Source: Sacculina carcini
Taxonomy: Eukaryota > Arthropoda > Thecostraca > Sacculinidae
Assembly: GCA_916048095.2 (NCBI GenBank)
Contig: OU696571.1
Location: 10,209,449-10,273,448 of the forward strand
Direction: 5' to 3'
DNA: 64,000 nt
The notes below the pieces were generated by a model. That model was not told the DNA's origin. It made no database searches and worked only from the letters and a program-made list of their open reading frames with translations. Shown in pieces: positions 1,422 through 62,859 of this stretch. How positions within the stretch are numbered: position 1 is the first letter of the stretch; every line of letters starts with the position of its first letter. The position numbers and the translations under genes were made by a program.

Positions 1422-2610
1422 GGACATCCCATTCAAGAAGGAACCGGTAGAATTGCCGGATAACAGGTGTATGGCTGAACGAAGGCTTGTGATTCTTAAA
1501 AGAAGACTTGAGAATGATGCATGTCTACATCAGGCATACTCTGAGAGCATGAGCGATCTCATTCAAAAGGGGTATGCTGAGCCAGTTGATTGTTCAAATG
1601 ATGAAATACAGACTGTTTGGTATTTACCACATCATTGCGTGCGTAATCACAACAAGCCGGGTAAGATACGTGTTGTGTTTGACTGTGCAGCTAAATTTAG
1701 AGGTAGCTTAGAGGTAATTTAGTGGTTGTTGAACGAGTATGTACTGCAAGGGCCTGATATGAAAAACAAATTAGAGGTAACTTAGAGGTAGCTTAGAGGT
1801 AATTTAGTGGTTGTTGAACGAGTATGTACTGCAAGGGCCTGATATGAAAAACAAATTGATTGGTATTCTTCTGAGGGTTTGAGAACAACCAGTGGCGATA
1901 ATGGGAGACATTGAATCAATGTTTCATCAAGTTCGTGCCTCTCCGCGCCAACGTGATATACTGAGATTTATATGGTGGCCAGATGGTGATCTGAATTTAC
2001 AGCAGCACACTTACCGTATGACCGTGCATTTATTCGGTGGTGCTGTCCCAGCTGTCCCAGCTGTGCCTGATTTGCCCTGAGACGAACCGCGGATGATCAC
2101 CGAGATTAATTCGACTCAGAAACCATTTATGCAGTCAGGTGTAACTTATATGTGGATTATTGTCTGAAATCGGTTAATTCAGTTGACGACGCCATGAAAT
2201 CTGTTGTATAATCTGTGTGACTTGGTGTCGCTTGGTTGATTATGTTTGAACAAATGGACCTCGATCAGTAAAGAAGTATTGGAGTATGTACCTGATAGCG
2301 AGCGAGCACAGAGCTGTAGGAATTTGAATTTCGATTCTTTTCTTCCTACCGAGTGTGCGCTCGGTCTCAAGTGGGACACAAATATTGATATTTTGGGAGT
2401 CATGTGCAAGAACACAAATGCTGAATTCACGAAAAGAGGGCTGCTGAGGGTACTCAGCTCTGTTTACGACCCCTTGGGATTTCTCAGTCCAGTGGTTTTG
2501 CTTGCAAAGTGGCTCTTTTAGGAGGAATGCAGACGAAAAGTTAGCTGGGACGACTCTCTAGAAGCAAGCAATGAAATCAAATGGAAAGGGTGGTTATCAG
2601 AATTGGTAAC
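1422..2610 (+). pseudogene. BEL/Pao reverse transcriptase, broken
   Basis: Continuation of the split BEL polyprotein. RT features are LPDNR..AERRL, VWYLPHHCV, KIRVVFDCAAKFRG, GDIESMFHQVR (first catalytic Asp), LRFIWWPDGD and YRMTVHLFG, followed by RALG(L)KWD and SSVYDPLGFLSP connection motifs up to 2,520. The frame is broken by an 85-bp tandem duplication (about 1,702-1,860), by frameshifts around 2,060-2,240 and by a TAG at 2,519-2,521. The segment with the YxDD box (about 2,060-2,240) is degraded. The coding sense is cut at 2,610 by the palindromic element and resumes at 16,996 in the same polyprotein context. Confidence 0.88.
1702..1860 (+). repeat. 85-bp tandem duplication within BEL RT
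   Basis: The stretch from GAGGTAATTTAGTGG to GAAAAACAAATT occurs at 1,711 and again at 1,796, a period of 85 bp. Both copies contain the codons that should occur once between FDCAAKFRG and the catalytic block, so the duplication arose inside the retroelement and breaks its frame. Confidence 0.85.
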
Positions 2611-2655
2611 AGTAGTAGAGTACTACACTTTGTTACATTTTAACCCAAGTTTTTT

Positions 2656-2900
2656 GTGTATACCTAACCTAACCTAACCTAACCTAACCTAACTTTTTTT
2701 AGTTTTTTTTAACCTAACCTAACTTTTTTTAGTTTTTTAACCTAACCTAACTTTTTTTTAGTTTTTTTCAACCTAACCTAACTTTTTTTAGTTTTTTTTT
2801 TAACCTAACCTAACTTTTTTTAGTTTTTTTTAACCTAACCTAACTTTTTTTAGTTTTTTAACCTAACCTAACTTTTTTTAGTTTTTTTAACCTAACCTAA
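2656..2900 (+). repeat. Telomere-like (CCTAA)n array interrupted by T-runs, left arm
   Basis: Short runs of AACCT repeats alternate with TTTTTTTAGTTTTTTT blocks, giving a higher-order period of roughly 28-30 bp. The array begins about 45 bp inside the element tip and is split at 2,900 by a Gypsy insertion, resuming at 7,255. The pentamer equals the arthropod telomere repeat read on the C-rich strand. Its inverted counterpart is at about 16,530-16,975. Confidence 0.9.
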
Positions 2901-3166
2901 TGTGGTGTAAACTGTGAACGCCTATGCTGTTTGTCATTGGAACTATGAATGCCTATACTGTACGTTTATGTGTAGTGTGTAATTGTGTCGCTACTGAGCG
3001 TTCTCTTTGTGTGTGTGTGTGTGTGTGTGTACTGGTTGTATGTGTGTGTGTACGTGCGTGTGTGTTCAGTGGACTTGATCGTGTGTGCGTTGTTCTTGGT
3101 TAGTTCTTGTGTGGCATTAGAGTTGAATAAAGCCAACGTTCCTGAAACAGTGTATTGGTTACTTCA
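2901..3166 (+). repeat. Gypsy-1 5' LTR
   Basis: TG...CA-bounded direct repeat of 6,977-7,254. It contains a GT microsatellite, and near its end GAATAAAG, which includes an AATAAA signal. The 16 bases 3,116-3,131 are complementary to the primer-binding region just after the LTR. Confidence 0.9.
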
Positions 3167-3183
3167 ATTTATTCAACTCTAAT
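3116..3183 (+). promoter_or_regulatory. Candidate self-priming site of Gypsy-1
   Basis: ATTAGAGTTGAATAAA (3,116-3,131, inside the LTR) and TTTATTCAACTCTAAT (3,168-3,183, one base after the LTR) are perfect reverse complements over 16 nt. No TGG-starting tRNA-complementary site is visible at the LTR edge. In the Tf1/sushi group the 5' end of the transcript folds back onto the primer-binding site to prime reverse transcription. The arrangement here would fit if transcription starts near 3,116. That start is inferred, not shown. Confidence 0.6.
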
Positions 3184-3184
3184 T

Positions 3185-6100
3185 ATGGAAAAATATCTAC
3201 GGCCGTCGCCTCTGGATATCGACGTAGAGACAGCAGATACTGAAGATCAGTGGCACATGTGGCACGAGAACTTTGAAGCATTCTGTGCGGCCATACCACC
3301 AGATTTGCGACCGGATAAATTGGCTCTACTGCGTTCTCACATGAGTGTGAAACTCTACAAGCTCATCAAAGTCGCACAGAACTATGAGACAGCCGTCAGC
3401 CTGCTAGCGTCCAGGTTTGTCAAACCAAAAAGTGAAGTTTTCGCAAGACACAAATTAGCCACTTGTAAACAACAGAATGGAGAGAACTTGGACACTTTTC
3501 TCGACAATTTGAAAAGTCGGGCAGCTGAGTGTGGCTTCAAAAACTGTACTGCGACTGAAGCTGAGGAGCTGGCAATCAGAGATGCCTACATAACAGGTAT
3601 ATCTTCTAACGCAATAAGACAGCGTTTGCTGGAGAATCTGTCTCTAAATTTGTCTTCCGCAGTAAGTCAAGCACGAGCTCTTGAAATGGCTCAACTTCAT
3701 TCAGCTTCATATTCTATTGACAATTCACTACCATCCACTGTTTCGCTGGTCACTGAAAAATACCAGAGTCAACAAGCAGCACATTGTGAGAATTCACACA
3801 AGAAAGCAGAATCACTGATCGGTTCCTGTGAAAATATTGCTGTGACGCATACGCGAAAGTGTTATTTTTGTGGAAGGGCTGCTCACGCCAAATCTGATTG
3901 TCCTGCTCGAAATGCTTGTTGCGCTAAATGTCATAAAATCGGTCATTACGCCCGTGTATGCAAGTCTTCAGCACGACAACGTTCGCCGCACTTTAGCCAC
4001 AACAAACGGTGCAAGCCACAAGCCACTTCAGCCACAACAAACGGTGCAATGATTGCTTCTTCTTCAGGCGTACTGAAAAGCCTCTCACCCGCTGTTACTT
4101 CAGTGCAGTTCAGCAGTGGCGATTCTATAGATGCTCTGGTAGACACCGGCAGCTGCAGAAGTTTTATACGAACGAACGTGGCAAAGCGCATGAAATTAAA
4201 AGTCGCTCCTTCTTCTGGTCGAATTTCAATGGCTTCATCCAGACAATCGGTTGAAATCACAAAGTGTTGTGTGGTAGACATCATCGTGAATGGAAAATCA
4301 TACAGTGACATCTGTCTTCACCTGATGGACGATCTTCGTGCGCCTGTGCTGCTCGGTCACGACTTTCTAAGTCAGCATCAGAAAATTACGGTGAGTTTCG
4401 GAGGTTGTCAGCCTCCACTTGAGTTGTGCAGCCTTCTCGCCGCTGACATTGAGCCTCCAGCTATATTTTCAAACCTTCCATCTGATTGCCGCCCTACTCA
4501 AATAAATTCAAGGAGATATTCAAAAGAAAATATTCAATTTATCATAGGCGAAGTGGACAGTTTGCTCAAACAAGGCATAATAACTCCAAGCCGTAGTCCA
4601 TGGAGGGCCCAGGTGGTTGTGGTAGACCAGGCAAACAAAAAGAGAATGACCGTTGACTACTCTCAAACCATCAACAAATACACCGATCTCATTGCTTATC
4701 CAGTACCTGGAATTTCAGAAATGGTAGAAAAGATATCGTCGTACAGTTGGTTCAGCTCCATCGACTTGAAAAGCGCCTACCATCAAATCCCACTGAAAGT
4801 CAGCGATCGGCCATACACTGCGTTCGAAGCTGGGGGAAAGCTTTATGAGTTTACTCGTTTGCCGTTCGGTGTTACAAACGGAGCGACGTGCTTTCAACAA
4901 GTTCTAGACGAACTGATTGCTGCTGAAAATCTGAAAGCTACGTTCGCATATATTGATGACATTACGATTTGCGGACACTCCAGACAAGATCACGACCACA
5001 ACTTGGAGCGTTTCCAAAAATTTGCGGAGAAATACAATTTGACCGTAAACGAAAAGAAGAATACATATGCGCAGTCCAAAATTTCCATTCTATGACACGT
5101 CATAGAAGATCACCAAGTCAAGCCTGATCCAGAAAGAATGAGACCTCTAATCGAGATGAATCCTCCCAGCGACGTGCCCAGCCTAAGAAGAACATTGGGG
5201 CTGCTATCGCATTATGCCAAATGGGTGCCAAATTTTTCAGAAAAAATTCGACCATTGATCGATACGAAAACTTTTCCTCTATCCGACGCTGCTACAAGGT
5301 CGTTGATAGAAATGAAAGAAGAAATTTTTAATGCTACTTTGACAGCCATCGACGAGAGTGCTATGTTCACAGTCGAAACAGACGCCTCCGCTCATTCCAT
5401 TGCAGCTTCATTGACTCAAGAAGGAAAACCTGTCGCGTTTTTCTCCCGCTCACTCTCAGAGTCAGAGAAGCGTCAATCTGCTGTTGAGCGTGAAGCATGT
5501 GCTGTAGTAGAATCAATCAAAAAAATGGCGGCATTTCCTCTTGGGGCGCAAATTCAGGCTCGTAACCGATCAACAGTCTGAACGCTTCATGTTCGACAAG
5601 AAAAATCATGGAAAAATCAAGAACGAAAAGATAATGCGATGGAGATTGGAGCTTAGCTGCTTTGCGTACGATATCACCTATCGCCCGGGAAGATTGAACC
5701 AAGTGGCTGATGCCCTCTCTAGAGCAACAGGATGCACTGCATCTGTCACTTTGCCTATCGATCTTGTACGTATACATGAGTCACTGTGTCATCCTGGCAT
5801 TCGGAGAATGACCCATATAGTGAGGCAAAGAAACCTTCCTTTTTCTATTGAAGAAATTAGAACGATGATCGCAAAATGTCACACATGTGCTTCCGTAAAA
5901 CCAAATTTCACAAGATTTACAGGAACACTTATCAAAGCTACAAGACCATTCGAGAGACTGTCCATCGACTACAAAGGCCCCTTGCCGTCAACTTCGAAGA
6001 ACAGATACATTCTCAACATCGTAGACGAGTACAGTAGATTCCCCTTTGCATTTCCCACACAAGACATGTCTGCCAATTCAACCATAAAATGCTTTTTCGA

Positions 6101-6901
6101 ACTCTTTTCCACTTGGGGATTACCCGACTACGTTCACTCCGACCGAGGCCCCGCATTTATATCATCAGAATATCAGAATTTCCTGCACCAGAGAGGAGTG
6201 GGCACCAGCTACTCATCGGCGTATAATCCTCGGGGTAATGGTCAGATTGAACGATTCAATGGAACACTGTGGCGCACCATAAGACTCGCTCTGTCATCTC
6301 GTTCGCTCCCTGTGGTAATGTGGGAAACAGTACTACTGGACGCACTCCACAGTATGCGTTCTCTATTGTGTGTCGCAACTAATAAAACTCCTCATGAACG
6401 CATGTTTGCTCATCCACGGAAAGCAACATATGGTCAAGCCACTCCTTCATGGCTATCCGCCGATAACCAGGCTCTGCTAAAGAAAGCGTTACGACATTCC
6501 AAGTACGACGACGAAGTAGAAGAAGTTCGCCTCCTTCATGTGAATCCGCAATGGGCTCGCGTCGCACATCAGGACGGCAAAGAATCCACAGTGTCTATTC
6601 GTCGACTGGCAACGGCAGCCCGAACGAAATCCTCGGTACAAACTCCAGATATTGGACAGAAAACGATGCACCAACACCGCGGTGACAACGTGGGCGAACA
6701 TTCAGCAGAAAGTTCAGAACTTTTTATTGTTCCAGATACATCTTCTATAAGCAGAACTGAGGGCTGTACTAGAGATGTTAACACGACTCAGACTGAGCCG
6801 CATACGAAGGATATCCCGGCTACTGAAGAGCCACGTCGATCGGGTCGAGTCAGACGGCAACCTGCCTATCTCTCTGATTACGTGAGTGTTGCTCTTGATT
6901 G
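3185..6901 (+). pseudogene. gag-pol: Gypsy-1 Gag-Pol polyprotein, two disabling changes
   Basis: The start ATG at 3,185 lies just after the LTR and primer site. In order: a Gag helical region, two zinc knuckles CYFCGRAAHAKSDC and CAKCHKIGHYARVC (about residues 225-262), aspartic protease VDTGS (about 318), RT with FSSIDLKSAYHQIPL and YIDD (about 588), RNase H with FTVETDASAHSIAA, then integrase with a H-H-C-C N-terminus (HESLCHPG..., CHTCASVK) and a DDE core (IDYKGP, SDRGPAF, NGQIERFNG). An in-frame TGA sits at 5,093-5,095, and one extra base in an A7 run at 5,519-5,525 shifts the frame. Everything else reads through. Gag and Pol are in one frame, with no gag stop or frameshift site evident. 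It ends just before the polypurine tract. Confidence 0.93.
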
Positions 6902-6965
6902 AACTCGGTTCTCTCGTTTCGATTGCTAGTTTGGCCAGCAAGTGGTGGCGCGCTTTGAATATTCA

Positions 6966-6976
6966 GCGGGGGAGAA
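6966..6976 (+). promoter_or_regulatory. Gypsy-1 polypurine tract
   Basis: GCGGGGGAGAA abuts the TG of the 3' LTR. This is the expected primer site for plus-strand DNA synthesis in LTR elements. Confidence 0.8.
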
Positions 6977-7081
6977 TGTGGTGTAAACTGTGAACGCCTA
7001 TGCTGTTTGTCATTGGAACTATGAATGCCTATACTGTACGTTTATGTGTAGTGTGTAATTGTGTCGCTAGTTAGCGTTCTC

Positions 7082-7121
<40 letters not shown>

Positions 7122-7254
7122 GGTTGTATGTGTGTGTGTACGTGCGTGTGTGTTCAGTGGACTTGATCGTGTGTGCGTTGTTCTTGGTTAGTTCTTGTGT
7201 GGCATTAGAGTTGAATAAAGCCAACGTTCCTGAAACAGTGTATTGGTTACTTCA
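6977..7254 (+). repeat. Gypsy-1 3' LTR
   Basis: Direct repeat of 2,901-3,166 with a longer GT run. It is followed immediately by CCTAA of the interrupted telomere-like array. Confidence 0.92.
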
Positions 7255-7735
7255 CCTAACTTTTTTTTAAGTTTTTTAACCTAACCTAACTTTTTTTCTT
7301 TCTTATTCTTCCTTTCTTATTATATTTATTCTTTATTCTATGCCCAACCTAACTTTTTTTTTTCTTATTCTTCCTTTCTTATTATATTTATTCTTTATTC
7401 TATGCCTAACCTAACTTCTTTGTGTATACCTAACCTAACCTAACCTAACCTAACTTTTTTTTTTGTATACCTAACCTAACTTCTTTGTGTATACCTAACC
7501 TAACTTCTATGTGTGTATACCTAACCTAACTATTTTTTTCTTTATTCTATTCCTAACCCGACCCAACCCAACTTTTAGTTTTATTTCTTATTCTTCCTTT
7601 CTTATTATATTTATTCTTTATTCTATACCCAACTTATATTTTTTTATTTCTTATTCTTCTTTTCTTATTATATTTATTCTTTATTCTATGCCCAACTTTT
7701 ATTTTTTTCCTTTATTTCTATTTTATGTCACGATA
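7255..7735 (+). repeat. Telomere-like array continued, plus TTATTATATTTATTC tandem units
   Basis: CCTAACCTAAC blocks continue after the Gypsy insertion and alternate with CTTTCTTATTATATTTATTC-type units, seen at least four times. The same composite occurs inverted at 16,400-16,975. No gene is visible; short open frames here are low-complexity. Confidence 0.85.
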
Positions 7736-7861
7736 CTCATTATATCGGGATCGCCAAGTCGATGTTTGACAGAGACGAGAATATAATAATTTTCAATCAT
7801 ACTTGAAATATATATAAAAAAACGGTTTGACTAAATCGGTCGCAAAGACAATGTTCCAATA

Positions 7862-8140
7862 TGACGATGAATCACTCACCACGTTTATATAAAGTGTCTG
7901 GTTTATGTCAAATACTACGGTAAGGTAATCGGATTAAAATGCCAGATGAATTCATTGGCGTCAAGCCAAGGATGAATATTTTGAATATATTTACCTGATA
8001 CACAGTTATGGGATTAAAACGTTTGCCGGTAACAAAGACCAAATTTACACGCAATTTATGTAAATGTAGCCGAAACGAATGCCTGTGAATCACTAGCTAC
8101 GTTTATATAACGTGTCTGGCTTATGTCAAACACTGACTAA
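7862..8140 (-). repeat. Two direct copies of a TATA-containing ~50-bp block
   Basis: GAATCACT..ACGTTTATATAA.GTGTCTGG..TATGTCAAA occurs near 7,868-7,914 and again near 8,087-8,131. Both have a TTTATATAA core and ACTAAATCGGT sequences nearby. The block is conserved in the inverted arm at 15,960-16,260. It could be promoter-like for the minus-strand gene at 8,286-8,609 or a simple internal repeat; the sequence does not decide. Confidence 0.5.
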
Positions 8141-8285
8141 ATCGGTAATTAAAACGCTATTCGACTGTGTCGGAATTGATACAAAAATGACTTGCAACGA
8201 AATGATCTTTGTGTATTTTCACTTGATACACAACTATGGTAAATATACAAGTGGAAATCATGTAGAATCTTATTGACGACACGAT

Positions 8286-8669
8286 TCAATGAACACATCG
8301 TGAACACAAATGTTTGTTGATTTTTCGATCAATTTTGATTATGTAAATCATATAGTGTGTCTCATACACAATTTCCAGTTCAGCCGACCATGTATCAGGC
8401 ACAGAAACACCTTCTTCTAGAGCGTCCGAAAGACACACGTCAAAAGATGTGTACTCCTTGTACGATTCGCTGATGATTTGTTTGCAATCTGACGAACTAC
8501 CACCAACATAGCGATAGTTATAATTAGGCACTAGTGTAGCAGGAGAAACACAGCTCATGATGTTTATACAAAGAAAGATAAACAATGACTGTAAGAACGA
8601 AATTATCAAACACGGAGTGATGGCGATAATTATGACGCTTGCTCCGATAAGTAGTGCAATTAGTGTCTG
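8286..8669 (-). CDS. Unknown small hydrophobic/secreted protein, left-arm copy
   Basis: The minus-strand open frame encodes a strongly hydrophobic N-terminal stretch (IISFLQSLFIFLCINIMSCV) followed by a hydrophilic domain with cysteines (SSSDCKQI, DVCLSD, LCSRC) and ends CSRCVH. The first in-frame ATG is inside the hydrophobic region (MSCVSPATL, about 90 residues). Upstream the frame stays open through TLIALLIGASVIII to a TAATAATAATCAG sequence that looks like an intron 3' end, so an upstream exon is possible. The right-arm copy (15,438-15,821) differs at only three residues over the last 107, suggesting recent duplication, gene conversion or constraint. I do not recognise the family. A signal peptide or membrane anchor is inferred. 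Confidence 0.5.
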   Translation of the reverse strand, partial: QTLIALLIGASVIIIAITPCLIISFLQSLFIFLCINIMSCVSPATLVPNYNYRYVGGSSSDCKQIISESYKEYTSFDVCLSDALEEGVSVPDTWSAELEIVYETHYMIYIIKIDRKINKHLCSRCVH

Positions 8670-8697
8670 ATTATTATTATTATTCTATTATTATTAA

Positions 8698-9360
8698 TTA
8701 CAGACAAATCCAGTAGCATGGGAAGAGTGCAAGCACTATTACCACCCTATGGTGGCCCCATGTACCGGAAGCGCTCAAAGGATTCAGAGAGAAAGAGAGT
8801 TCGAAAAGAAAAAAGTCTAGAAAGAGAGTTGGAAAGAAAATAATAAATAACAATAAATAATAAACCATCATCCGATAACACTCCATAATGTCACTCCGCC
8901 CACTTTCCTCAATAAATAACAACAATCAACAATAAATATGTGATTAAGTAAATAACAACCATCAATAAATAAGAATAAATATTAATAAATAAGTAATAAA
9001 TAACAATCAAGAACAATAAATATGATTCAATAAGAAACATCCAACAATAAATAAAAATATGATTCAATAAGTAACAACAACACAAATAAATATGATTAAA
9101 TAAACAACAACAACACCAATAAATATTATTCAATAAACAGCAACAACAATAAATATGATTCAATAAACAACAACAGCCAACACTGAGTAAAAGTATAATT
9201 TAATAAATAACAACAACCAATAATAAATAGTAATAAATAGAGAGTAAAATAAGAATACATATAAATAAATAGAAAATAAATAACAATAAAAATGAATAAA
9301 TAAAAATAAATAACAATAAATATGAATAAATAAACAATTAATAAGACTCAACAGTCAATT
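8698..9360. other. AT-rich (ATTTATTGTT)-type low-complexity tract
   Basis: The tract is dominated by AATAAATA and ACAACAACA words and reads as Ile/Tyr/Cys/Leu-rich open frames on the minus strand. It is duplicated inverted at 14,756-15,410. I see no credible gene. It may be an intergenic or intronic part of the palindromic element. Confidence 0.6.
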
Positions 9361-9473
9361 CCGCTCTTTCAGTAGCATTTCATTGACTTTGGCCTTGATA
9401 TCAGCCGTGATACGCAGTTGAGCTCGAGACGCTTGCGGGTGAGGTTGTGTAGCTTTATCGTGGAATTGTCAGC

Positions 9474-10067
9474 ATGAGTCAGGTGAATACAAACGTTGAT
9501 AAGACCAAGCGGATCCTGCCACTGGAACATCATGCGGTCAAGTTTGTTGCCGATACACCGTTCATCTGTGGACACCCACTGGAGCAGAGGATTTAGATTA
9601 TTTTCGGACGACTGGAAAAACATAGTCAGACGGATTTCGAACACTTACAAAAACAGCTTACTAATATTATGCAACTGGAGCGATATTTTGACCCCTTTTG
9701 GAAAATTCACCGCGGCGCGGTGAGAATGTTCACCAACGAGGAGCGTGCACTACAGATTGTGATCGATACAGTTATGAGTCGACCGATGAGAGATGCTGTT
9801 CTCGGAGCCGTTGCAGCCGCTGTATCATTTAAAGTGTTGTCGGTGGCGTTGGTGCGAAGCGACGAGACTCAGATTTACCGGCCGCCCGATGAGACCTGCA
9901 ACACTATGGAGTGGATGAAGACCATTGTCATGAGCTACTATGAGTCGCGAAAACAGTACTTGACCGAAACCAAGATTTATCGTGAATTTAAAGCCGACAA
10001 AATGAAGATGGTTGTGCACAAAGAGGTTCAAGGTGAACCACAAAGTAAACGGAACAAAATTTGTTGA
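9474..10067 (+). pseudogene. Unknown ~197-residue protein of the palindromic element (one in-frame TAG)
   Basis: An ATG at 9,474 opens a frame MSQVNTNVDKTKRILPLEHH that continues to TGA at 10,067, with one in-frame TAG at 9,594-9,596 (codon 41). The part after it from the ATG at 9,669 is uninterrupted for 132 residues: LERYFDPFWKIHRGAVRMF, then an Ala/Val-rich possible helix (RDAVLGAVAAAVSFKVLSVA) and a basic C-terminus (KSKRNK-like). Composition and codon spread look like a real protein rather than a shadow frame. The right arm keeps only about the first 23 codons, because about 890 bp from here to about 10,440 is missing there. No similarity to a known family was recognised. The TAG could be a disabling mutation. 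Confidence 0.5.
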
Positions 10068-10500
10068 ATTATTCTATATGTACGGTTTACCAATACATTT
10101 CGTGATGTGTCACAAGAGTTTGATTATTGCGCGCGAACAAAAACACACTTTGTTATCGTTCAATTTATTCAAATGGTAGCATGCGCGGTGTACATAGATT
10201 CATTGCATACAGCAATTTAGCGAAATGTTGACAACGTAAAATACAACAGTTTGTAGGAATAACATGAGTATATGGACACGGTGTAATGTTGGGTAGTACA
10301 TGTATGTTGCGTGCCTTCATTGATAAATAGTCGGGTAGGATGTCTTCGAGATTTTCAATGTTTACTTCAAGTAGATGCGAAAGTCGACGAGCCTTGTCGA
10401 GACAGCGTAGATGCCGTCAGCCGCCAGGCTTTGGATCAAGTAACGTGTGCCATGTAGTTTATGTTCATACCTGTACTCAATAGGTTGGCGTAGACGTTGT
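10068..10500. other. Left-arm-only segment without a visible gene
   Basis: This region belongs to the 890 bp present only in the left arm. The minus strand has short pieces such as LIQSLAADGIYAVSTRLVDF that may be an exon continuing from the 10,512-10,724 frame, but no continuous frame supports this. Confidence 0.3.
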
Positions 10501-10511
10501 CGGATGCCTGG

Positions 10512-10724
10512 CTATGGATCAGGTAGTTGCGCCGTGCATATTGCCAGCACGTGATGTAAGTTTAAATCGTGAAGTGTCGGCGTCAGAACTAGAGAATTTT
10601 CTTTTCTCTCGGTGTTGAATTTCGCTTGGAGTGGATGTAGGACAATTATCATAAACACTACTCGTCCAATTTCTTTACGGTCATCCTTATGCAGGTATCC
10701 TTCACAGTCTACAAGTATGATCAT
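10512..10724 (-). CDS. Unknown 70-residue open frame, MIILVDCEGY-type, left arm
   Basis: It starts at a true ATG (minus strand, 10,724) and encodes MIILVDCEGYLHKDDR..EIGRVVFMII. The VDCEGY/KEIG pairing is reminiscent of the first motif of DEDD-type exonucleases, but no further motifs are visible, so that is only a hint. The inverted right-arm copy (14,299-14,433) keeps the first 40 residues and then frameshifts to an early stop after FNTEN. It may be one exon of a longer gene. Confidence 0.35.
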   Translation of the reverse strand: MIILVDCEGYLHKDDRKEIGRVVFMIIVLHPLQAKFNTERKENSLVLTPTLHDLNLHHVLAICTAQLPDP

Positions 10725-11097
10725 AGTTTAAAAAGTTCATTGTCGATAGCAGAATAGACACAAAACATATTCGTGTATATCCTTGCACAAAGAGAGCTGT
10801 ACTGTCACACACGCCAGATTTTGACGTCTGAATCACAGTCTAGTGTATACAAATGTGAGATTTGTTTATGTAAGCGTAAGGCCCGGTTTTTGTCGGTAAG
10901 TTCATAGGGTTAAAACACTAGGCGTTCTTATATCACTGCCCTTCTCAAATACTTATTAATTTCAACTTGGAAATATTCGCTGTCATACAATAGTATATTG
11001 TTATACCAAATTGATTCCAGGGCGATACTTTACCAAAAGACCTCTACCTAACACCGCCTCTGGAGATATTCACAAGAGGTATGACTTGCATGTCGGC

Positions 11098-11102
<5 letters not shown>

Positions 11103-11175
<73 letters not shown>
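11103..11175 (+). repeat. (TA)n microsatellite, left arm
   Basis: About 36 TA units. The inverted counterpart in the right arm (about 13,890-13,917) has only about 14 units, so repeat length has diverged between the arms. Confidence 0.95.
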
Positions 11176-11177
<2 letters not shown>

Positions 11178-11538
11178 TATAATGAAATATACATGAATAT
11201 GAACAGGAAAATTCACATCCTCTGCAATATCTCAGAACGTTGTGAATCTCCCTGGTCATTTTTGTTTTGTCCCATGTTTCTATAATTCACTTCCTTCTCA
11301 TATCCTTCTATCTCCCTCTTTTCTCCGCTCTCGCTTCATCTCTGTGCACATACTTATTCTCTAAATATTTGTAATCCCACATTGTCTTACACCATATGGA
11401 AAAAAAACAAATAGTCGCTCAATGTGCGCACTTCTCTTTTGTTTTCACGTATTTTTGTACCATATAATCCTTTTTTTCTATCTCCGATCTCTACCTGATT
11501 ATCTTTTTACCGAAAGTTGTGTTAATTTTCTGATTTCT

Positions 11539-11540
<2 letters not shown>

Positions 11541-11608
<68 letters not shown>
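11541..11608 (+). repeat. (TG)n microsatellite at the inner edge of the left arm
   Basis: A pure TG run. Sequence immediately left (11,420-11,540) matches the right arm inverted (13,523-13,640), while sequence to its right does not. The palindrome therefore ends inside this TG/CA tract. Confidence 0.9.
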
Positions 11609-11609
<1 letters not shown>

Positions 11610-11789
11610 TCTCATGTTTATATATTACGCTCTGTGGTTGTCTCATATTGCTTCGACGTGTAGCTGTTTTTTTCGATATGAATTTTGAATAATAAATGTT
11701 GTATGAGTTATCAATCGTTCATATCCACAGAAATTCTTGTCAGACGTAGGCATATACACACATTTATTTACAAATAGAAAAATTAAAAA

Positions 11790-12330
11790 TAGTGTTGCCC
11801 GAGCGATGCTAGGACGTCGTCAATATGTGGATCGTTCATATCGATGTGTGTGAGTATGAAGCGTGGTCCACCGTCTGCCGGTCGATCGTACACTGGCACC
11901 ATACCTGGAGACGTACACATACAATACAAATAGTCAATATTCTGTATGATAAATAATATTCAGCGAATGCCATATCCATGTCATCGTTGTCGTCATACGA
12001 AGTGGTAAACTCTATTACCTATATAAACCGACACAGTCCGTCACCCACAGGTCTTGCTAATAATGTGAGCGTCTCCTCACCTTCAGCGTTTGTCGAGACG
12101 TCTGAATCGGTAAACATTTCCGGAGACGGCTGGGGCGACTGTGGTGACGACGATGGTGACGGTGACGACAATGGTGGCAATGGTGGTGACGACAATGTTA
12201 GCAATGGTGGAGGCGTTGGTGGTGTTGGTGGTGGTGCACGTGTGCGTCGATCGTCACAGGCACCATTTACAGTCGTCGGTTGACGTTGGTACGGCGCCAC
12301 TCGACATCTTGGTAACCTTCGTGGTGGCAT
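11790..12330 (-). CDS. Possible 3' exons of a spliced gene in the palindrome loop
   Basis: On the minus strand a proline/serine-rich frame (12,330-12,019, PPTPPTPPPLLT...) leads into EMFTDSDVSTNAEGEE. Further on, after a CTCCAG acceptor-like site near 11,910, a protein-like tail VYDRPADGGPRF..HIDMNDPHIDD..SLGQHYF ends at a stop near 11,790. The frames do not connect without splicing. The sequence is not repeated in the arms. I do not recognise the product; this is a tentative gene model. Confidence 0.3.
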
Positions 12331-12433
12331 ACATAATGTTAGAATTTTATTAAAGTCTTACGCTAAACGCTAAATTTTATTAGAACGTTACGTAAATATG
12401 CCAGTATTTGTCAAGGATAGTTCGATAAATATC

Positions 12434-12700
12434 TTACCGTCTATAATTTCGCCCTGTGGAGACAAAGTTGGCGGTAGTTGTCTCGGTCGAGGTGGCGGTG
12501 ATGATGGTCGAGGTGTCAGTACTCAAGGTGGCGGTTGCGTTGGTGGTTGTCGTGACGACTGCGGTGGAGGCGGTGGTAGAATTGGCCCTATTGGTGGCTA
12601 ACATAACCGTTTCCACTATATCCCCTATAGTTTTGACATTTACGTCAGAATATTTCATCACCACAGCCCCGTCCGGTGTAATTTTCACACTTACCTTCAT
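12434..12700 (-). CDS. Possible 5' exon of the same loop gene
   Basis: An ATG at 12,700 opens MKVSVKITPDGAVVMKYSDV followed by NVKTIGDIVETVMLATNRAN and a Thr/Ala/Ser-rich low-complexity segment. Near 12,441 the coding strand reads CG|GTAAGATATTT, a good splice donor. The non-repetitive N-terminus argues for a real exon, while the low-complexity half invites caution. The opposite-strand frames (Gly/Asp- and Val-rich) are taken as shadows. Confidence 0.35.
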   Translation of the reverse strand: MKVSVKITPDGAVVMKYSDVNVKTIGDIVETVMLATNRANSTTASTAVVTTTTNATATLSTDTSTIITATSTETTTANFVSTGRNYRR

Positions 12701-12838
12701 GTTGACTGTTGTCTACCGGTTGTGAGCAGCGGTCTTTTATTCGAAATGTACAACCTGATTTCTAATTTGTTTGCACCAAATAATCAGAGAAATGTTACTA
12801 AATTTAGCACTATTTGGTCACTGTACACATCAGTCATT

Positions 12839-12840
<2 letters not shown>

Positions 12841-12893
<53 letters not shown>

Positions 12894-12958
12894 CACATGC
12901 ATATGCACATACACACACACACACACACATGCATATGCACATACACACACATGCATAT

Positions 12959-12989
<31 letters not shown>

Positions 12990-13086
12990 TGCACATGCAT
13001 ATGCACATACACACACACACACACAGTGGTCCGATGCAGCCTGTACGTAAGCTAAAAGCGAACCGAGGAAACTCAGCAAGCACACA

Positions 13087-13141
<55 letters not shown>

Positions 13142-13215
13142 TCTTGCTCGCACACACACGCACACACACACACACACGCAAACACACACACACATCACAC
13201 ACAAGCACACACATA
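12841..13215 (+). repeat. CA microsatellite cluster in the loop
   Basis: CA runs with embedded ATGCACATGCATATGCACAT words repeat at least three times, then a short unique spacer (13,025-13,082), then more CA. All open frames here (His/Thr or Cys/Val) are artefacts of the dinucleotide repeat. Confidence 0.95.
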
Positions 13216-13379
13216 AACACTGCTGCAATGTTTCATTCCAGGTGGTTAAATATACAACATCCTAATTGGCATGCAGTCACGATATCCACGATAACCATTT
13301 AGATTAGCTGACACATATGTGCTGACAGTGTTGAATCAAATTAATGAAGACAGACTGAGACTTCACGCTCACTCACTCA

Positions 13380-13380
<1 letters not shown>

Positions 13381-13459
<79 letters not shown>

Positions 13460-13480
13460 CACACACATGCACATGCATAT

Positions 13481-13523
<43 letters not shown>
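13381..13523 (+). repeat. (CA)n microsatellite at the inner edge of the right arm
   Basis: Inverted counterpart of the TG run at 11,541. It includes an ATGCACATGCATATGCA block also seen in the loop. The right inverted arm starts here and runs to 16,990. Confidence 0.92.
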
Positions 13524-13525
<2 letters not shown>

Positions 13526-13890
13526 AGAAATCAGAAAATTAACACAACTTTCGGTAGAAAGATAATCAGGTAGAGATCGGAGATAGAAAAAAAAAGATTA
13601 TATGGTACAAAAATACGTGAAAACAAAAGAGAAGTGCGCACATTGAGCGACTATTTGTTTTTTTTCCATATGGTGTAAGACAATGTGGGATTACAAATAT
13701 TTAGAGAATAAGTATGTGCACAGAGATGAAGCGAGAGCGGAGAAAAGAGGGAGATAGAAGGATATGAGAAGGAAGTGAATTATAGAAACATGGGACAAAA
13801 CAAAAATGACCAGGGAGATTCACAACGTTCTGAGATATTGCAGAGGATGTGAATCTCCCTGTTCATATTCATGTATATTTCATTATATTC

Positions 13891-13921
<31 letters not shown>

Positions 13922-14298
13922 GCCGACATGCAAGTCATACCTCTTGTGAATATCTCCAGAGGCGGTGTTAGGTAGAGGTCTTTTGGTAAAGTATCGCCCT
14001 GGAATCAACTTGGTATAACAATATACTATTGTATGACAGCGAATATTTCCAAGTTGAAATTAATAAGTATTTGAGAAGGGCAGTGATATAAGAACGCCTA
14101 GTGTTTTAACCCTATGAACTTACCGACAAAAACCGGGCCTTACGCTTACATAAACAAATCTCACATTTGTATACACTAGACTGTGATTCAGACGTCAAAA
14201 TCTGGCGTGTGTGACAGTACAGCTCTCTTTGTGCAAGGATATACACGAATATGTTTTGTGTCTATTCTGCTATCGACAATCAACTTTTTAAACTATGA

Positions 14299-14433
14299 TC
14301 ATACTTGTAGACTGTGAAGGATACCTGCATAAGGATGACCGTAAAGAAATTGGACGAGTAGTGTTTATGATAATTGTCCTACATCCACTCCAAGCGAAAT
14401 TCAACACCGAGAACAAGAACATTCTCTAGTTCT
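14299..14433 (+). pseudogene. Right-arm copy of the MIILVDCEGY frame, truncated
   Basis: Same start and first 40 residues as the minus-strand frame at 10,512-10,724. A small indel near 14,412 changes the ending to an early TAG. Confidence 0.4.
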
Positions 14434-14562
14434 GACGCCGACACTTCACGATTTAAACTTACATCACGTGCTGGCAATATGCACGGCGCAACTACCTGAT
14501 CCATAGCCAGGCATCCGACAACGTCTACGCCAACCTATTGAGTACAGGTATGAACATAAACA

Positions 14563-14633
14563 AACTTGATCGCATGATGTTCCAGTGGCAGGATCCGCTT
14601 GGTCTTATCAACGTTTGTATTCACCTGACTCAT
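14563..14633 (-). pseudogene. Right-arm remnant of the 197-residue protein (N-terminus only)
   Basis: The ATG (minus strand, 14,633) and about 23 codons match the left-arm gene at 9,474. At 14,563 the sequence jumps to what lies at about 10,440 in the left arm, so the body of the gene and the following spacer are absent. Confidence 0.6.
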
Positions 14634-14755
14634 GCTGACAATTCCGCGATAAAGCTACACAACCTCACCCGCAAGCGTCTCGAGCTCAACTGCGTATCAC
14701 GGCTGATATCAAGGCCAAAGTCAATGAAATGCTACTGAAAGAGCGGAATTGACTG

Positions 14756-15410
14756 TTGAGTCTTATTAATTGTTTATTTATTCATATTTATTGTTATTTA
14801 TTTTTATTTATTCATGTTTATTGTTATTTATTTTCTATTTATTTATATGTATTCTTATTTTACTCTCTATTTATTACTATTTATTATTGGTTGTTGTTAT
14901 TTATTAAATTATACTTTTACTCAGTGTTGGCTGTTGTTGTTTATTGAATCATATTTATTGTTGTTGCTGTTTATTGAATAATATTTATTGGTGTTGTTGT
15001 TGTTTATTTAATCATATTTATTTGTGTTGTTGTTACTTATTGAATCATATTTTTATTTATTGTTGGATGTTTCTTATTGAATCATATTTATTGTTCTTGA
15101 TTGTTATTTATTACTTATTTATTAATATTTATTCTTATTTATTGATGGTTGTTATTTACTGAATCGCATATTTATTGTTGATTGTTGTTATTTATTGAGG
15201 AAAGTGGGCGGAGTGACATTATGGAGTGTTATCGGATGATGGTTTATTATTTATTGTTATTTATTATTTTCTTTCCAACTCTCTTTCTAGACTTTTTTCT
15301 TTTCGAACTCTCTTTCTCTCTGAATCTTTTGAGCGCTTCCGGTACATGGGGCCACCTTAGGGTGGTAATAGTGCTTGCACTCTTCCCATGCTACTGGATT
15401 TGTCTGTAAT
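14756..15410. other. AT-rich low-complexity tract, right arm
   Basis: Inverted copy of 8,698-9,360 with few differences. Open frames rich in Ile/Tyr/Cys/Phe are compositional. Confidence 0.6.
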
Positions 15411-15437
15411 TAATAATAATAGAATAATAATAATAAT

Positions 15438-15821
15438 CAGACACTAATTGCACTACTTATCGGAGCAAGCGTCATAATTATCGCCATCACTCCGTGTTTG
15501 ATAATTTCGTTCTTACAGTCATTGTTTATCTTTCTTTGCATAAACATCATGAGCTGTGTTTCTCCTGCTACACTAGTGCCTAATTATAACTATCGCTATG
15601 TTGGTGGTAGTTCTTCAGATTGCAAACAAATCATCAGCGAATCGTACAAGGAGTACACATCGTTTGACGTGTGTTTTTCGGACGCTCTAGAAGAAGGTGT
15701 TTCTGTGCCTGATACATGGTCGGCTGAACTGGAAATTGTGTATGAGACACACGATATGATTTACATAATCAAAATTGATCGAAAAATCAACAAACATTTG
15801 TGTTCACGATGTGCTCATTGA
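15438..15821 (+). CDS. Unknown small hydrophobic/secreted protein, right-arm copy
   Basis: Same protein as the minus-strand copy at 8,286-8,669, differing by L/F (DVCFSD), Y/D (ETHDM) and V/A (CSRCAH). The frame opens after a run of AAT codons ending in CAG, a possible splice acceptor, and encodes TLIALLIGASVIIIAITPCL before the first in-frame ATG at 15,549. The stretch would form one or two membrane segments or a long signal sequence. It stops at TGA 15,819-15,821. The near identity of the two copies, while microsatellites around them differ, suggests that the coding sequence matters or that the arms convert each other. Confidence 0.5.
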   Translation, partial: QTLIALLIGASVIIIAITPCLIISFLQSLFIFLCINIMSCVSPATLVPNYNYRYVGGSSSDCKQIISESYKEYTSFDVCFSDALEEGVSVPDTWSAELEIVYETHDMIYIIKIDRKINKHLCSRCAH

Positions 15822-16399
15822 ATCGTGTCGTCAATAAGATTCTACATGATTTCCACTTGTATATTTACCATAGTTGTGTATCAAGTGAAAATACACAAAG
15901 ATCATTTCGTTGCAAGTCATTTTTGTATCAATTCCGACACAGTCGAATAGCGTTTTAATTACCGATTTAGTCAGTGTTTGACATAAGCCAGACACGTTAT
16001 ATAAACGTAGCTAGTGATTCACAGGCATTCGTTTCGGCTACATTTACATAAATTGCGTGTAAATTTGGTCTTTGTTACCGGCAAACGTTTTAATCCCATA
16101 CCTGTGTATCAGGTAAATATATTCAAAATATTCATCCTTGGCTTGACGCCAATGAATTCATCTGGCATTTTAATCCGATTACCTTACCGTAGTATTTGAC
16201 ATAAACCAGACACTTTATATAAACGTGGTGAGTGATTCATCGTCATATTGGAACATTGTCTTTGCGACCGATTTAGTCAAACCGTGTTTTTTTATATATT
16301 TCAAGTATGATTGAAAATTATTATATTCTCGTCTGTGCCAAACATCGACTTGGCGATCCCGATATAATGAGTATCGTGACATAAAATAGAAATAAAGGA

Positions 16400-16975
16400 A
16401 AAAAATAAAAGTTGGGCATAGAATAAAGAATAAATATAATAAGAAAAGAAGAATAAGAAATATAAAAATATAAGTTGGGTATAGAATAAAGAATAAATAT
16501 AATAAGAAAGGAAGAATAAGAAATAAAACTAAAAGTTGGGTTGGGTCGGGTTAGGAATAGAATAAAGAAAAAAAAAGTTAGGTTAGGTATAAACACAAAG
16601 AAGTTAGGTTAGGTATACACAAATAAGTTAGGTTAGGTACACAAAAAAAAAGTTAGGTTAGGTTAGGTTAGGTTAGGTTTACACAAAGAAGTTAGGTTAG
16701 GCATAGAATAAAGAATAAATATAATAAGAAAGGAAGAAGAAGAAAGAAAAAAAGTTAGGTTGGGCATAGAATAAAGAATAAATATAATAAGAAAGGAAGA
16801 ATAAGAAAGAAAAAAAGTTGGGTTAGGTTAAAAAACTAAAAAAAAAAGTTAGGTTAGGTTAAAAAAAACTAAAAAAACTTAGGTTAGGTTAAAAAAAAAT
16901 ATAAAAAGTTAGGTTAGGTTAGGTTAGGTTAGGTTAGGTATACACAAAAAAGTTAGGTTAAAATGTAGCAAAGTG
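16400..16975 (+). repeat. Telomere-like (TTAGG)n array, right arm
   Basis: GGTTAGGTTAGGTT blocks alternate with A-runs and AAGAATAAATATAATAAGAAAGGAAG units, an inverted equivalent of 2,656-2,900 plus 7,255-7,735. The longest uninterrupted TTAGG run is near 16,912-16,940, close to the element tip. Confidence 0.9.
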
Positions 16976-16990
16976 TAGTACTCTACTACT

Positions 16991-17444
16991 GTAACATCGG
17001 ATGGATTTAACGTACCGCGATGTTATGTACCACGGGATTCTGGAAGGCTTGTACAGGTGCTCGTTTCTTTTGGCCGAATCTCGCTTGGCCTCTTTGAAAC
17101 AAATAACTGTTCCACGGCTTGAGCTTTCAGCAGCGGTTGTGGTCGTGAGGTTGGACAGAATGATCAGAGACGAACTCCGCCCTGAAATTGTCGATTCCTT
17201 CTTCTGAACCGACAGCCTGATAGTGTTGCAGTATATCAGAGCTCAAAACAAGCGATTTTTGACATTTGTAGCCAATAGGGTGTCAATAATTCATGATGGT
17301 TCGAATGTTGAAAAATGGAAATACGTAGAGTCTTCAGAAAATCCCGCAGACGATGTTTCTCGAGTATTCGGTGCTAAAGAAATTCTTGAGAATGAGCGGT
17401 GGATCCAGGGACCCCGGTTCTTGTGGAGAGAGGAATCTCACTGA
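16991..17444 (+). pseudogene. BEL/Pao RNase H region, broken
   Basis: Coding sense resumes from 2,610 with NVPRCYVP, then AESRLASLKQITVPRLELSAAVVVVRL (RH-associated motif). After an in-frame TGA at 17,205-17,207 follow TDSLIVLQYI, KRFLTFVANRV, KWKYVESSENPADDVSR and NERWIQGPRFLW, diagnostic of BEL/Pao between RT and integrase. A frameshift lies near 17,080. The region ends in the linker toward the integrase, most of which is missing. Confidence 0.87.
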
Positions 17445-26289: not shown

Positions 26290-27064
26290 ATGTCAATTGA
26301 GCCAACAGACGCTCTTTCAGCAGCAGTCCGGGTGGAGCTGCCCGTGTTTGATGACACTGATGTTGACACGTGGCTACTGATGTGTGATAATCTGTTGGAA
26401 GATGGAGGAGTGAAGACACAGCTGACCAAATCTCGCAAAGTCTTGGCAAAACTTCCCCCCGCGAAGTTTCGCATTGTCAAGGACCTCGCGAGTCAATCAC
26501 CGCTGGCAGCCGACTGCTACGATTGACTTCAAAGCAGACTGCGTACCAGGCTCCAACTGTCTCTAGCTGAGACGCTCCAGCGTTTGGAGAGCCTTCCTCG
26601 GCGGCTGGGCTCCATGAAGCCATCCGAGCTTTATGACGTCATGCACGCGCTGTACCCACATGGTCTTTTTGCTCAGGCTTCCCTCAGAGATGCAGCTCCT
26701 GTGCAGAGAATTGCTGAATACAGTAACTCTTCGTGAGGCTGCCCTCAAAATCGACATACACCATCGTGCACGCTCTCATGAGACACCAGCGTCAACTCTT
26801 GTGGTCAGCCAGGAGATCAGTGACGACGACGAATGTGTTGTTGCTGTCACGCGCCATGCGGCCGCACGTGCCCCAACAGACGCGGTTAATCGCCGTCAAA
26901 ACAGCTCGCAGCAAGCAACTGCAGGTTCAAGTTTCGTAGACCGCTGGTGTCGCCTCCACCGCAAATATGGTCCCGCCGCGCGGAATTGTGCTGGACCGTG
27001 CACGTACCACGTTGACCTGCCACAGTTCCAACGACCGGGAAACGGGCGCGGCAACCGGCGGTAA
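26290..27064 (+). pseudogene. gag: Gypsy-2 Gag, broken
   Basis: The ATG at 26,290 begins a DUF7041-type Gag (MSIEPTDALSAAVRVELPVF, FRIVKDLASQSP). An in-frame TGA stands at 26,524-26,526. The same frame continues (TRLQLSLAETLQRLESLPRR, GSMKPSELYDVMHALYP), and a frameshift near 26,670 moves it to EMQLLCRELLNTVTLREAAL. It ends with the cysteine motif CRLHRKYGPAARNCAGPC in place of a CCHC knuckle, as usual in this Gypsy branch. The stop TAA at 27,062-27,064 overlaps the Pol ATG. Confidence 0.87.
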
Positions 27065-30000: not shown

Positions 30001-30261
30001 TTCGTTTTGGACTTCAACGGACGCCCGGACACATTCGCCATCGACCGTTTGAAGCCGGCATTTTCCGAGAGAAGCCAAACCTGCAGCTCACCACTGCCAC
30101 CTTCAGCCCAAACTTCTCAAGGCGCCGCCGAGGCAGCTGCGGTTCCCACGTCGGTAACGGAGTCGCCTGTTCCTGCTGACACTTCACACACACTCCGGCC
30201 TCCCAGAATCGTTTGGTCCAGGCGCGCCAGGCCAATTTGCGCCCCGGTTCGTTTTCAGTAG
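27064..30261 (+). pseudogene. pol: Gypsy-2 Pol (protease-RT-RNase H-integrase), one premature stop
   Basis: The ATG at 27,064 shares its A with the Gag stop (TAATG). Order: protease VDSGSEVSLLP (about residues 22-32), RT with FSTIDLPRAFAQVPV and YCYLDDIIVFS (about 345), RNase H with VVADASDRAVGAVI, then TAA at 28,633-28,635 where the family normally has an acidic codon before the LFA..VKQFRHLLEGR motif. The same frame continues to the integrase: zinc region (HSMHHPSARTARRL, CTLCQRC), LHVDVVGPL, SDRGRQFVSD, QQNGLVERIHRQLK, and a C-terminal domain VFVRVDAVRRPL..YRGPYAVL. It ends TAG at 30,259-30,261, just before the 3' LTR. Confidence 0.92.
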
Positions 30262-34167: not shown

Positions 34168-34173
34168 CGTCAG
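34148..34173 (-). ncRNA. Hammerhead-like core in the upstream pLTR, overlapping the start codon
   Basis: Same CTGACGA-hairpin arrangement as 31,525-31,550. The ATG at 34,167 uses the last A of CTGACGA, and the first codons form stem II. The terminal core GAAA is GAAG here, predicted to weaken cleavage. Confidence 0.4.
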
Positions 34174-34264
34174 GAGAAGTAGATATAACACAATACAATA
34201 CACAGCAAAATACACAATATCAAACAATACAGGATAAACGGTGTTTATAAACAAGGTGGACAAA

Positions 34265-34374
34265 CTTTGGCAGATTGAACATTTACCCTGGTATATCTCT
34301 GGTCATAAGGTCCAACATGGATAATATGTAGTGAAATTTTGGACGAAAATATGAGCTTAAAGACCGTGATCTAC

Positions 34375-36621: not shown

Positions 36622-36945
36622 GGACTCCGTGGTGTAGTAGTTAGCACACCCGCCTCACAAGCGGGAGGTTCGTGGTTCTAAACCCGGCGGAGCAGAATTT
36701 TATTGGGCGAATTCTACAATCCCACAACCCCTTTCCAACCAGCAGAAAATAATGGTACCAGATATCAGTCATGAGTTGTGCCATGCATTCTGGGGAGGTG
36801 GCCCTATCTAATACGTCTTACGTCCTTGTGGCGCCATAGCGTGGAGAGGGTCGGTTCTGCGGTGGCAGCGAGCTGCACGGGACACGCCTATGTGTTCATG
36901 AGCTTCGGTTTCTTCCCGTGTAGCAGCTGCCACTTAGTCATTTAA
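36622..36945 (+). mobile_element. SINE with tRNA-Val(CAC)-like head
   Basis: 36,622-36,694 resembles tRNA-Val. Box A lies in GTGGTGTAGTAGTTAGCAC and box B in GGTTCGTGGTTCTAAACCC. The anticodon arm CCCGC-CTCACAA-GCGGG gives anticodon CAC. The acceptor halves ACTCCG/CGGAG pair, but the T-stem is damaged, so this is a SINE head rather than a functional tRNA. A non-tRNA body of about 250 bp follows (CAGAATTTTATTGGGCGAATT..). The 3' end and TSD are not clear. Confidence 0.72.
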
Positions 36946-48201: not shown

Positions 48202-48344
48202 CCAACTGCTCATCAGAATCATACTCTGATCTGTCTCTGGTACTAGGTTCCGTGTTTTCTGGAACATTTGGACTGAACTTGACTAACCTCACTTTCCTCA
48301 CATTTCTAGACTCTGGGAAATACACCATATATGAAGGACTCTCC
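48202..48344 (-). pseudogene. Copia fragment downstream of integrase, antisense
   Basis: The minus-strand frame KESPSYMVYFPESRNVRKVR follows on directly from the Copia segment that ends VGYDK at about 50,090; the two are separated only by a LINE. The sense stops at the hAT fragment. The RT-RNase H part is missing. Confidence 0.8.
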
Positions 48345-48351
48345 TTGTCAT

Positions 48352-62510: not shown

Positions 62511-62850
62511 GTAGTATCACTCAGGAACATGAAAAGGTGTTTTCAGAACAGGTGCTGTTTGAAAAAAAGTTGGTATCTTGAAGAGAGTAGTTGTTCTGTC
62601 AGCGAGTTTTTATTAGAGCGGCCCGTTGTTTTGATTGTCAGGCTGTTGCTAGCTCGTTTCGTATCAATTGGTGCTGGTATTCGGTGTTTGGCATGTGTTT
62701 GTTGAATAAGAAAAACTTGATTTTTTACTAAACTGTTCTTGTGATCAGTGTGATTTTGCATAACGAATGCGAAAAACGTTGAGCAGTACTGAATAAATAA
62801 ATACAGGATATATAGAGACGCGTATTTTAGGGACCCCGCATATAAGAGAC
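62511..62850. other. Gene-free stretch
   Basis: No feature recognised between the Gypsy-6 remnant and the LINE. Confidence 0.4.
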
Positions 62851-62859
62851 TCTGGATAT

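Follow-up and report, generated by a model that had tools for sequence, protein, structure and literature searches.

Symmetric defective adenovirus genomes, such as left-end duplications and those of the SYREC type, are explained by fold-back or strand switching during protein-primed replication. A protein-primed polymerase is also encoded by the Polintons or Mavericks, transposons of about 17 kb that carry in addition an ATPase, an integrase, a protease and two capsid genes and that end in (AG)3 or (AGT)2; in vertebrates they have 6-bp target site duplications (TSDs), and their replication mode has been inferred from the polymerase and the ends (PMC8097293, available part of the text). The DNA analyzed here is a stretch of 64,000 nucleotides from the arthropod Sacculina carcini (contig OU696571.1, positions 10,209,449 to 10,273,448, assembly GCA_916048095.2), referred to as the window. 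It contains a molecule built as a mirror image, each end bearing the same tip, most of the parent having been lost. With a probability of roughly 0.8, we consider it a non-autonomous Polinton in which the end opposite the integrase was put in inverted duplicate by fold-back or template switching during protein-primed replication.

The element is an insertion of 14,380 bp at positions 2,611 to 16,990 that interrupts a BEL/Pao retrotransposon, and without a nested long terminal repeat (LTR) retrotransposon it measures 10,021 bp. Exact, unstranded copies of the TSD GTAAC lie at 2606 to 2610 on the left and 16991 to 16995 on the right. The tips are exact as well: AGTAGTAGAGTACTAC... begins at 2611, and 16990 is the last position of its reverse complement. 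The BEL frame picks up again past the insertion, the left flank ending in ...LSELV and the right flank beginning with VTSDGFNVPRCYVP, so both the 5-bp boundaries and the resumed pol frame reported in the initial annotation hold. Four flank pieces were submitted to Pfam; a 39-aa piece that precedes the stop codon of the flank itself was recognized as Pao retrotransposon peptidase (E 2.6e-6), and no match was obtained for the two pieces adjoining the insertion or for one upstream open reading frame (ORF). A 41-bp empty-site pattern had no match in the genome at up to 3 mismatches, and the target duplication and the reading frame are thus all that define the empty site. The BEL copies may be too diverged for such a search, the flanking BEL repeats differing by a Kimura two-parameter (K2P) distance of 0.08. 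Of the two genome-wide searches proposed in the initial annotation, then, the one for empty sites returned nothing, and the one for the tip was productive (see below). The BEL element also has a perfect 85-bp tandem duplication at 1697 to 1857 of the window.

Alignment of the two arms confirmed the proposed palindromic element of about 10 kb, pairing at 97 to 98.6% over about 3.4 kb and at 93% in the repeat-rich outermost part. From the tips inwards, 2609-2789 pairs with 16992-16810 (93%), 7254-9548 with 16854-14559 (98.65%; 2297 columns with 32 substitutions and 6 gap columns), 10457-11154 with 14561-13865 (98.1%) and 11149-11607 with 13916-13449 (97.0%). By segment, K2P divergence between the arms is 0.006 to 0.012. 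Chance does not account for inverted repeats this long and this similar. On the forward strand, the left arm starts with the tip and the outer part of the terminal inverted repeat (TIR), with runs of TTAGG-type pentamers (2611 to 2900, pairing with 16990 inwards). It continues at 7255 to 8667 with the rest of the Polinton TIR and right-end-specific sequence, which is about 91 to 97% identical to the right ends of longer copies; the left ends of those copies match the arm only to about 8195. An interspersed repeat (8668 to 9400), with 3,696 first-look candidates genome-wide, 40 of which were scored, occupies one and the same position in the two arms and was absent from it in the longer copies compared. 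It is followed by the Polinton right-end gene region (9401 to 10474), containing an ORF at 9597 to 10067, and by an inner segment, here called B (10370 to 11607), which is homologous to, though diverged from, the right-end region over its first 105 bp or so and which ends in a (TG)n tract at 11541 to 11607. The loop (11608 to 13448, forward strand) is made of a rare sequence (11608-12727), with four strong matches genome-wide including the window, and a (CA)-rich repeat (12728-13448), so the arms end at complementary TG and CA tracts. On the reverse strand, the right arm consists, by the arm alignment, of inverted copies of 10457-11607 (at 13449 to 14561) and of 2611-2900 plus 7255-9548 (at 14562 to 16990). 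It has no counterpart of 9549-10456, a 908-bp deletion with, by eye, a 3-bp microhomology (GTT) at the break.

TTAGG-type pentamers resemble arthropod telomeres. The four arrays in the window TIRs (2663-2692, 7429-7453, 16653-16677 and 16909-16938) are its only runs of at least four units. Among the relatives (designated L for stretches holding copies, with their own numbering, and C for contigs of the same genome), L015 has TIR arrays at 1553-1607 and 1672-1786 with up to 23 units, and runs of at least three units were present in nine of ten other loci looked at.

Palindromes are classic products of inverted read chimeras, yet an assembly artefact of this kind is highly improbable here. The arms differ by those 32 substitutions in 2297 columns, the 908-bp deletion affects one arm, and the nested LTR element, with its own duplication, is found in one arm only. 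With the many other pairs described below, these differences led us to reject it.

A strict pattern for the tip matched 24 places in the genome and a degenerate one 160, compared with 0 for a reversed-pattern control; a still stricter pattern, which the degenerate one replaced, gave a single match. Among 100 of the 160 tips, those listed, there were 30 convergent pairs 3.2 to 28.7 kb apart, 13 of them at 16 to 20 kb and 8 at 12 to 14.4 kb (one further pair, 83 bp apart, was dropped). We tested 31 tip pairings for TSDs, namely, 29 of these 30 pairs (all except C1:10144218) and the outer pairings at C22 and C23. A TSD of at least 5 bp was found in 28, of exactly 5 bp in 27 and of 9 bp within a CA run in the other. 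The three pairings without one were the inner pairings of C22 and C23, the outer tips of which do have a duplication, and one left-left pair on C1. Two of the 28 duplicated sites (C3 and C37) repeat another site with the same flanks and are probably segmental duplications, which leaves 26 independent sites. The possibility raised in the initial annotation, that no other copy would share these tips and 5-bp duplications, is thereby dismissed. Direct tip repeats resembling tandem arrays of one element end were also observed, exactly 4408 bp apart at C1:10157618, 10162026 and 10166434 and 4413 bp apart at C35:2375354 and 2379767.

The Polinton gene set is present in longer relatives that share these tips. 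In a copy on C15, Pfam recognized an integrase (PF00665, 4.2e-12), a Pox_A32 packaging ATPase (3.5e-7), a family-B polymerase (DNA_pol_B_2, PF03175, 6.3e-46) and an adenovirus-type cysteine protease (Peptidase_C5, 4.0e-8), and other longer copies repeated the polymerase (1e-45), ATPase (5e-7) and integrase (7.6e-12). The best solved relative of the integrase is Ty3 Gag-Pol (E 3.5e-4), and the protease matches adenoviral protease chains (E 2e-5 to 5.3e-5). A 459-aa protein encoded upstream of the protease had no match in Pfam and 88 database relatives, 3 of them named F54H12.2-like. Its AlphaFold model (pLDDT 82, pTM 0.82) retrieved with Foldseek the capsids of PBCV-1, an iridovirus, Sputnik and mavirus (E 5e-17 to 4e-13, TM about 0.5 to 0.6), and the predicted fold identifies it as the double-jelly-roll major capsid protein. 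Upstream of the capsid gene there is an ORF of 487 to 520 aa, considered as a candidate for the minor capsid protein, the 487-aa version of which had no Pfam match. Once orientation is taken into account, gene order agrees among the longer copies over the parts read, and the longest inverted match between the two ends is 0.6 to 1.3 kb in five of them. The end motif is AGTAGT in the window and AGTAGA or AGTAGT in other copies. Tips, TIRs and gene set together assign the family to the Polintons/Mavericks. The unknown class or new family of the initial annotation therefore gives way to the alternative that it had itself offered, a fold-back derivative of a larger Polinton-like element, given the tips and arms of the window copy and the gene set of its longer relatives. 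The polymerase and integrase that it had proposed to look for in full-length copies are both encoded by these relatives.

In the window copy itself, no Polinton hallmark gene was recognized, as initially noted, nor was any intact gene; its TIR and right-end gene region are about 86 to 97% identical to those of longer copies. In the ORF at 9597-10067, 156 C-terminal residues remain of a 208-aa orphan gene that adjoins the right TIR of longer copies (L022, 5832-6458) and is 97 to 98% identical in two more of them; the remnant is broken by an in-frame stop and is 93% identical to the longer copies at the protein level. No homologue of the 208-aa protein was found at E of 0.001 or lower among 119 candidates, and its AlphaFold model was poor (pLDDT 37), so no function is claimed. 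The missing hallmark genes and the long, internally repetitive TIRs, like those of Foldback and Galileo, might suggest that fold-back transposons of a new class are involved, with no relation to Polintons and with a transposase of their own. This has practically no probability, being refuted by the tips, TIR sequence and one gene that the window shares with Polinton copies. In addition, 17 ORFs of relatives submitted to Pfam gave no transposase match, and thus no P-type transposase as in Foldback/Galileo.

Several places in C3:9066426-9349698 and C10:6437253-6680992 have a tip and the right-end gene about 2.1 to 3.2 kb apart. At least one of them, at C3:9203396-9208630, is a complete 5.2-kb element with an ACTCG duplication. 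These short elements are perhaps a multicopy deletion derivative that is not mirrored.

To evaluate how common mirrored copies are, we used a 36-mer of the integrase end as left-end marker (present in 9 of 9 left-end loci and 0 of 6 right-end loci), together with a right-end marker. Since both listings follow contig order, the counts below describe subsets and not genome totals: 100 of 233 left-end sites, on C1 to C21, and 100 of 166 right-end sites, on C1 to C29. The left-end sites formed 29 neighbor pairs within 20 kb, 19 of them convergent left-left pairs, compared with a mean of 0.18 and a maximum of 3 in 1000 trials of random placement. Right-end sites gave nine right-right neighbor pairs within 16 kb, five of them convergent (random mean 0.15, maximum 2). 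Left-right neighbors were in the canonical orientation in 31 cases, mostly about 13 kb apart, and in other orientations in 5. A 36-mer of segment B occurs at 59 sites, all listed, which form 18 convergent pairs, the window included, and 1 divergent pair (random mean 0.05, maximum 2). Altogether, there are about 34 distinct convergent pairs (18 B plus 19 left-left, minus 8 shared, plus 5 right-right), and their differing spacing is a further argument against a chimeric assembly.

Two adjacent insertions in opposite orientation, or a nested insertion followed by deletion, could mimic a palindrome, and nesting is common here; moreover, 10 of the 29 left-end neighbor pairs are not convergent. We nevertheless regard this origin as improbable. 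A single 5-bp duplication encloses the whole window palindrome, and no further tip was found inside it, on which grounds a nested pair of elements was rejected. Convergent order also prevails, and the right-right relative L049 (on C10) is colinear across its loop. There, 1-1615 mirrors 5935-4321 at 99.3%, and 1616-6201 is colinear, at 95 to 99%, with the longer copies L026 and L037, which marks a fold-back junction where the strand turned back over a 2.7-kb loop. Of two left-left copies, the one at C11:3119517-3132504, read in part, has arms that extend over 4.8 kb or more, ACACG duplications and, at each of its two ends, the TIR and a C-terminal integrase fragment. In the other, at C3:10316226-10326996, the left-end markers lie 1082 bp from each tip, between CACAC duplications. 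A single duplication thus encloses each of three mirrored elements (window, C11 and C3).

The main rival is a conversion in place, in which one TIR of an ordinary left-right copy would invade the inverted TIR and copy the opposite end inwards, by gene conversion or break-induced replication. Such an event needs only TIR homology and host repair, and two loci indicate that end-to-end template switching in place does occur. At C23:5700014-5718840 (L015, L016 and L017), beyond a right end comes a stretch of at least 1.5 kb that copies the left host flank in inverse orientation, and after it this long copy has a second right tip and a GTACC duplication. At C22:377236-380100 (L012 and L013), the left end is tandemly duplicated with a period of 1444 bp and 99.9% identity. 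Against in-place conversion stands, however, the distribution of B, which is present in 13 of the 19 left-left pairs, on both arms in 8, across ten contigs, with 17 of the 21 B sites of these pairs lying 1685 to 1774 bp from the left-end marker. This recurring architecture indicates that mirrored forms probably transpose as palindromes. In addition, the mosaic of the window arm (right end, interspersed repeat and B) also occurs in L042 and L045; a single arm was present in the stretch compared of each, and neither has a convergent partner for B within 16 kb. We therefore consider conversion in the chromosome rather unlikely as the origin of these copies. Identity between B arms was 99.7 to 100% within a copy (three copies) and 99.0 to 99.9% among palindromes, a contrast too small to claim homogenization. 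The idea that another transposon had inserted at the center and that B was its TIR was discarded because B sits inside other Polinton-tipped mirrored copies.

The most likely route to the inverted duplication thus appears to be fold-back or template switching of a nascent or displaced single strand. Protein-primed strand displacement would leave long single strands. Such a strand may fold back and prime itself, or the polymerase may switch strands, and a mirror-image genome would result. With the same functional tip at both ends, this molecule could be replicated from each end and joined to the chromosome by an integrase; complete copies would supply the integrase and polymerase that recognize both ends of the mirrored copies in trans. 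In the window, fold-back may have taken place at the complementary (TG)n and (CA)n tracts, and microsatellite tracts at this point fit the mechanism.

Several observations weigh against this origin by fold-back during replication. Neither a replication intermediate nor a virion nor a transposition event was seen. In-place conversion would also retain both tips and the duplications, and the inverted host flank on C23 belongs on the same side. For loop part 11608-12727, none of ten pieces taken from longer or mirrored copies gave a match, and its assignment as Polinton sequence was not upheld; in the relative L044, a sequence like it lies next to the polymerase gene of the Polinton (96% over 1.9 kb). 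The L049 junction has 0 to 1 bp of microhomology, so a microhomology rule is unsupported, and a junction this close to blunt neither supports nor excludes fold-back. Non-convergent neighbors exist, comprising four divergent (-+) and six tandem (three -- and three ++) among the 29 left-end pairs and three tandem (--) and one divergent (-+) among the nine right-right pairs. TSDs were confirmed in two left-left elements only (C11 and C3:10316226), the left-left pair at C1:10865709-10881791 has none, and among right-right elements the TSD test covered the window alone.

The nested LTR retrotransposon (2901 to 7254, forward strand, outside the palindrome) is of the Gypsy kind and encodes, by Pfam, protease, reverse transcriptase (RT), RNase H and integrase. 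It is 4,354 bp long and has its own TSD, CCTAA, at 2896-2900 and 7255-7259. Over 268 aligned sites, its LTRs (2899-3166 and 6975-7254) show 2 substitutions, and their alignment has 12 gap columns. The resulting divergence of 0.0075 is similar to that between the arms of the palindrome, so the rearrangement steps in the window may be close in time. In a plausible order, a right end would first have recombined with B-type sequence and received the interspersed repeat, two features that L042 and L045 share. Inverted duplication, insertion into BEL, entry of the LTR element into the left arm and deletion in the right arm would have followed in turn.

Other retroelements in the window (27016-30261, 31708-34302, 48310-49396 and 62797-63648) include a second Gypsy-type element with RT and RNase H in its first ORF, an 864-aa minus-strand ORF that is Penelope-like by eye and has no Pfam or PDB match, and, by eye, fragments of non-LTR RTs. 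A tRNA-Val (CAC) gene or tRNA-like repeat lies at 36623-36695.

Compared with described systems, the family resembles Polintons/Mavericks in gene set, end motif, TIRs, the size of its canonical copies (about 16 to 20 kb here) and the integrase-type duplication. It differs in the pentamer arrays of its TIRs and in that, among the sites listed, mirror-image pairs are nearly as numerous as canonical ones. The linear mirror image, with one end inverted and duplicated around a unique loop in a protein-primed system, recalls the defective adenovirus genomes. One terminus in inverted duplicate around a unique center, with the other end lost, was found in the window, in L049 and in the left-left pairs. 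Unlike the adenoviral products, these copies are integrated in a genome assembly, derive from both ends and include at least one multicopy type. Its duplications are of 5 bp, not the 6 bp of vertebrate Mavericks (PMC8097293, available part), and we treat this length as a lineage trait and not as a definition. Foldback and Galileo of Drosophila likewise have long, internally repetitive inverted arms and are structurally labile, but Galileo belongs to the P-element superfamily (PMC3573991, available part), whereas the parental elements here are Polintons, which have an integrase and duplications of 5 bp. Inverted duplications, ascribed to template switching between strands in replication, also result from origin-dependent inverted-repeat amplification; as presented in the parts available of PMC4689423 and PMC10766183, its products are chromosomal copy-number variants, whereas those described here have transposon tips and target duplications. 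No mirror-image Polinton or Maverick form was described at the level of the titles and abstract openings listed, a coverage that leaves most of the subscription literature outside.

Mirrored copies with intact tips and TSDs are the expected residue of fold-back errors in protein-primed replication. Through them, the mode of replication can be tested from sequence, and they also illustrate a path from a virus-like transposon to a long-armed fold-back element without recognizable genes. To our knowledge, the Polinton replication cycle has not yet been watched directly. More tentatively, and at somewhat below even odds, Polintons of this genome may replicate outside the chromosome by protein-primed strand displacement and routinely yield symmetric defective genomes from both ends, re-integrated by a helper integrase, with at least one type now a self-perpetuating palindromic satellite family. 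If this is true, the genome of S. carcini would be a fossil record of the Polinton replication cycle.

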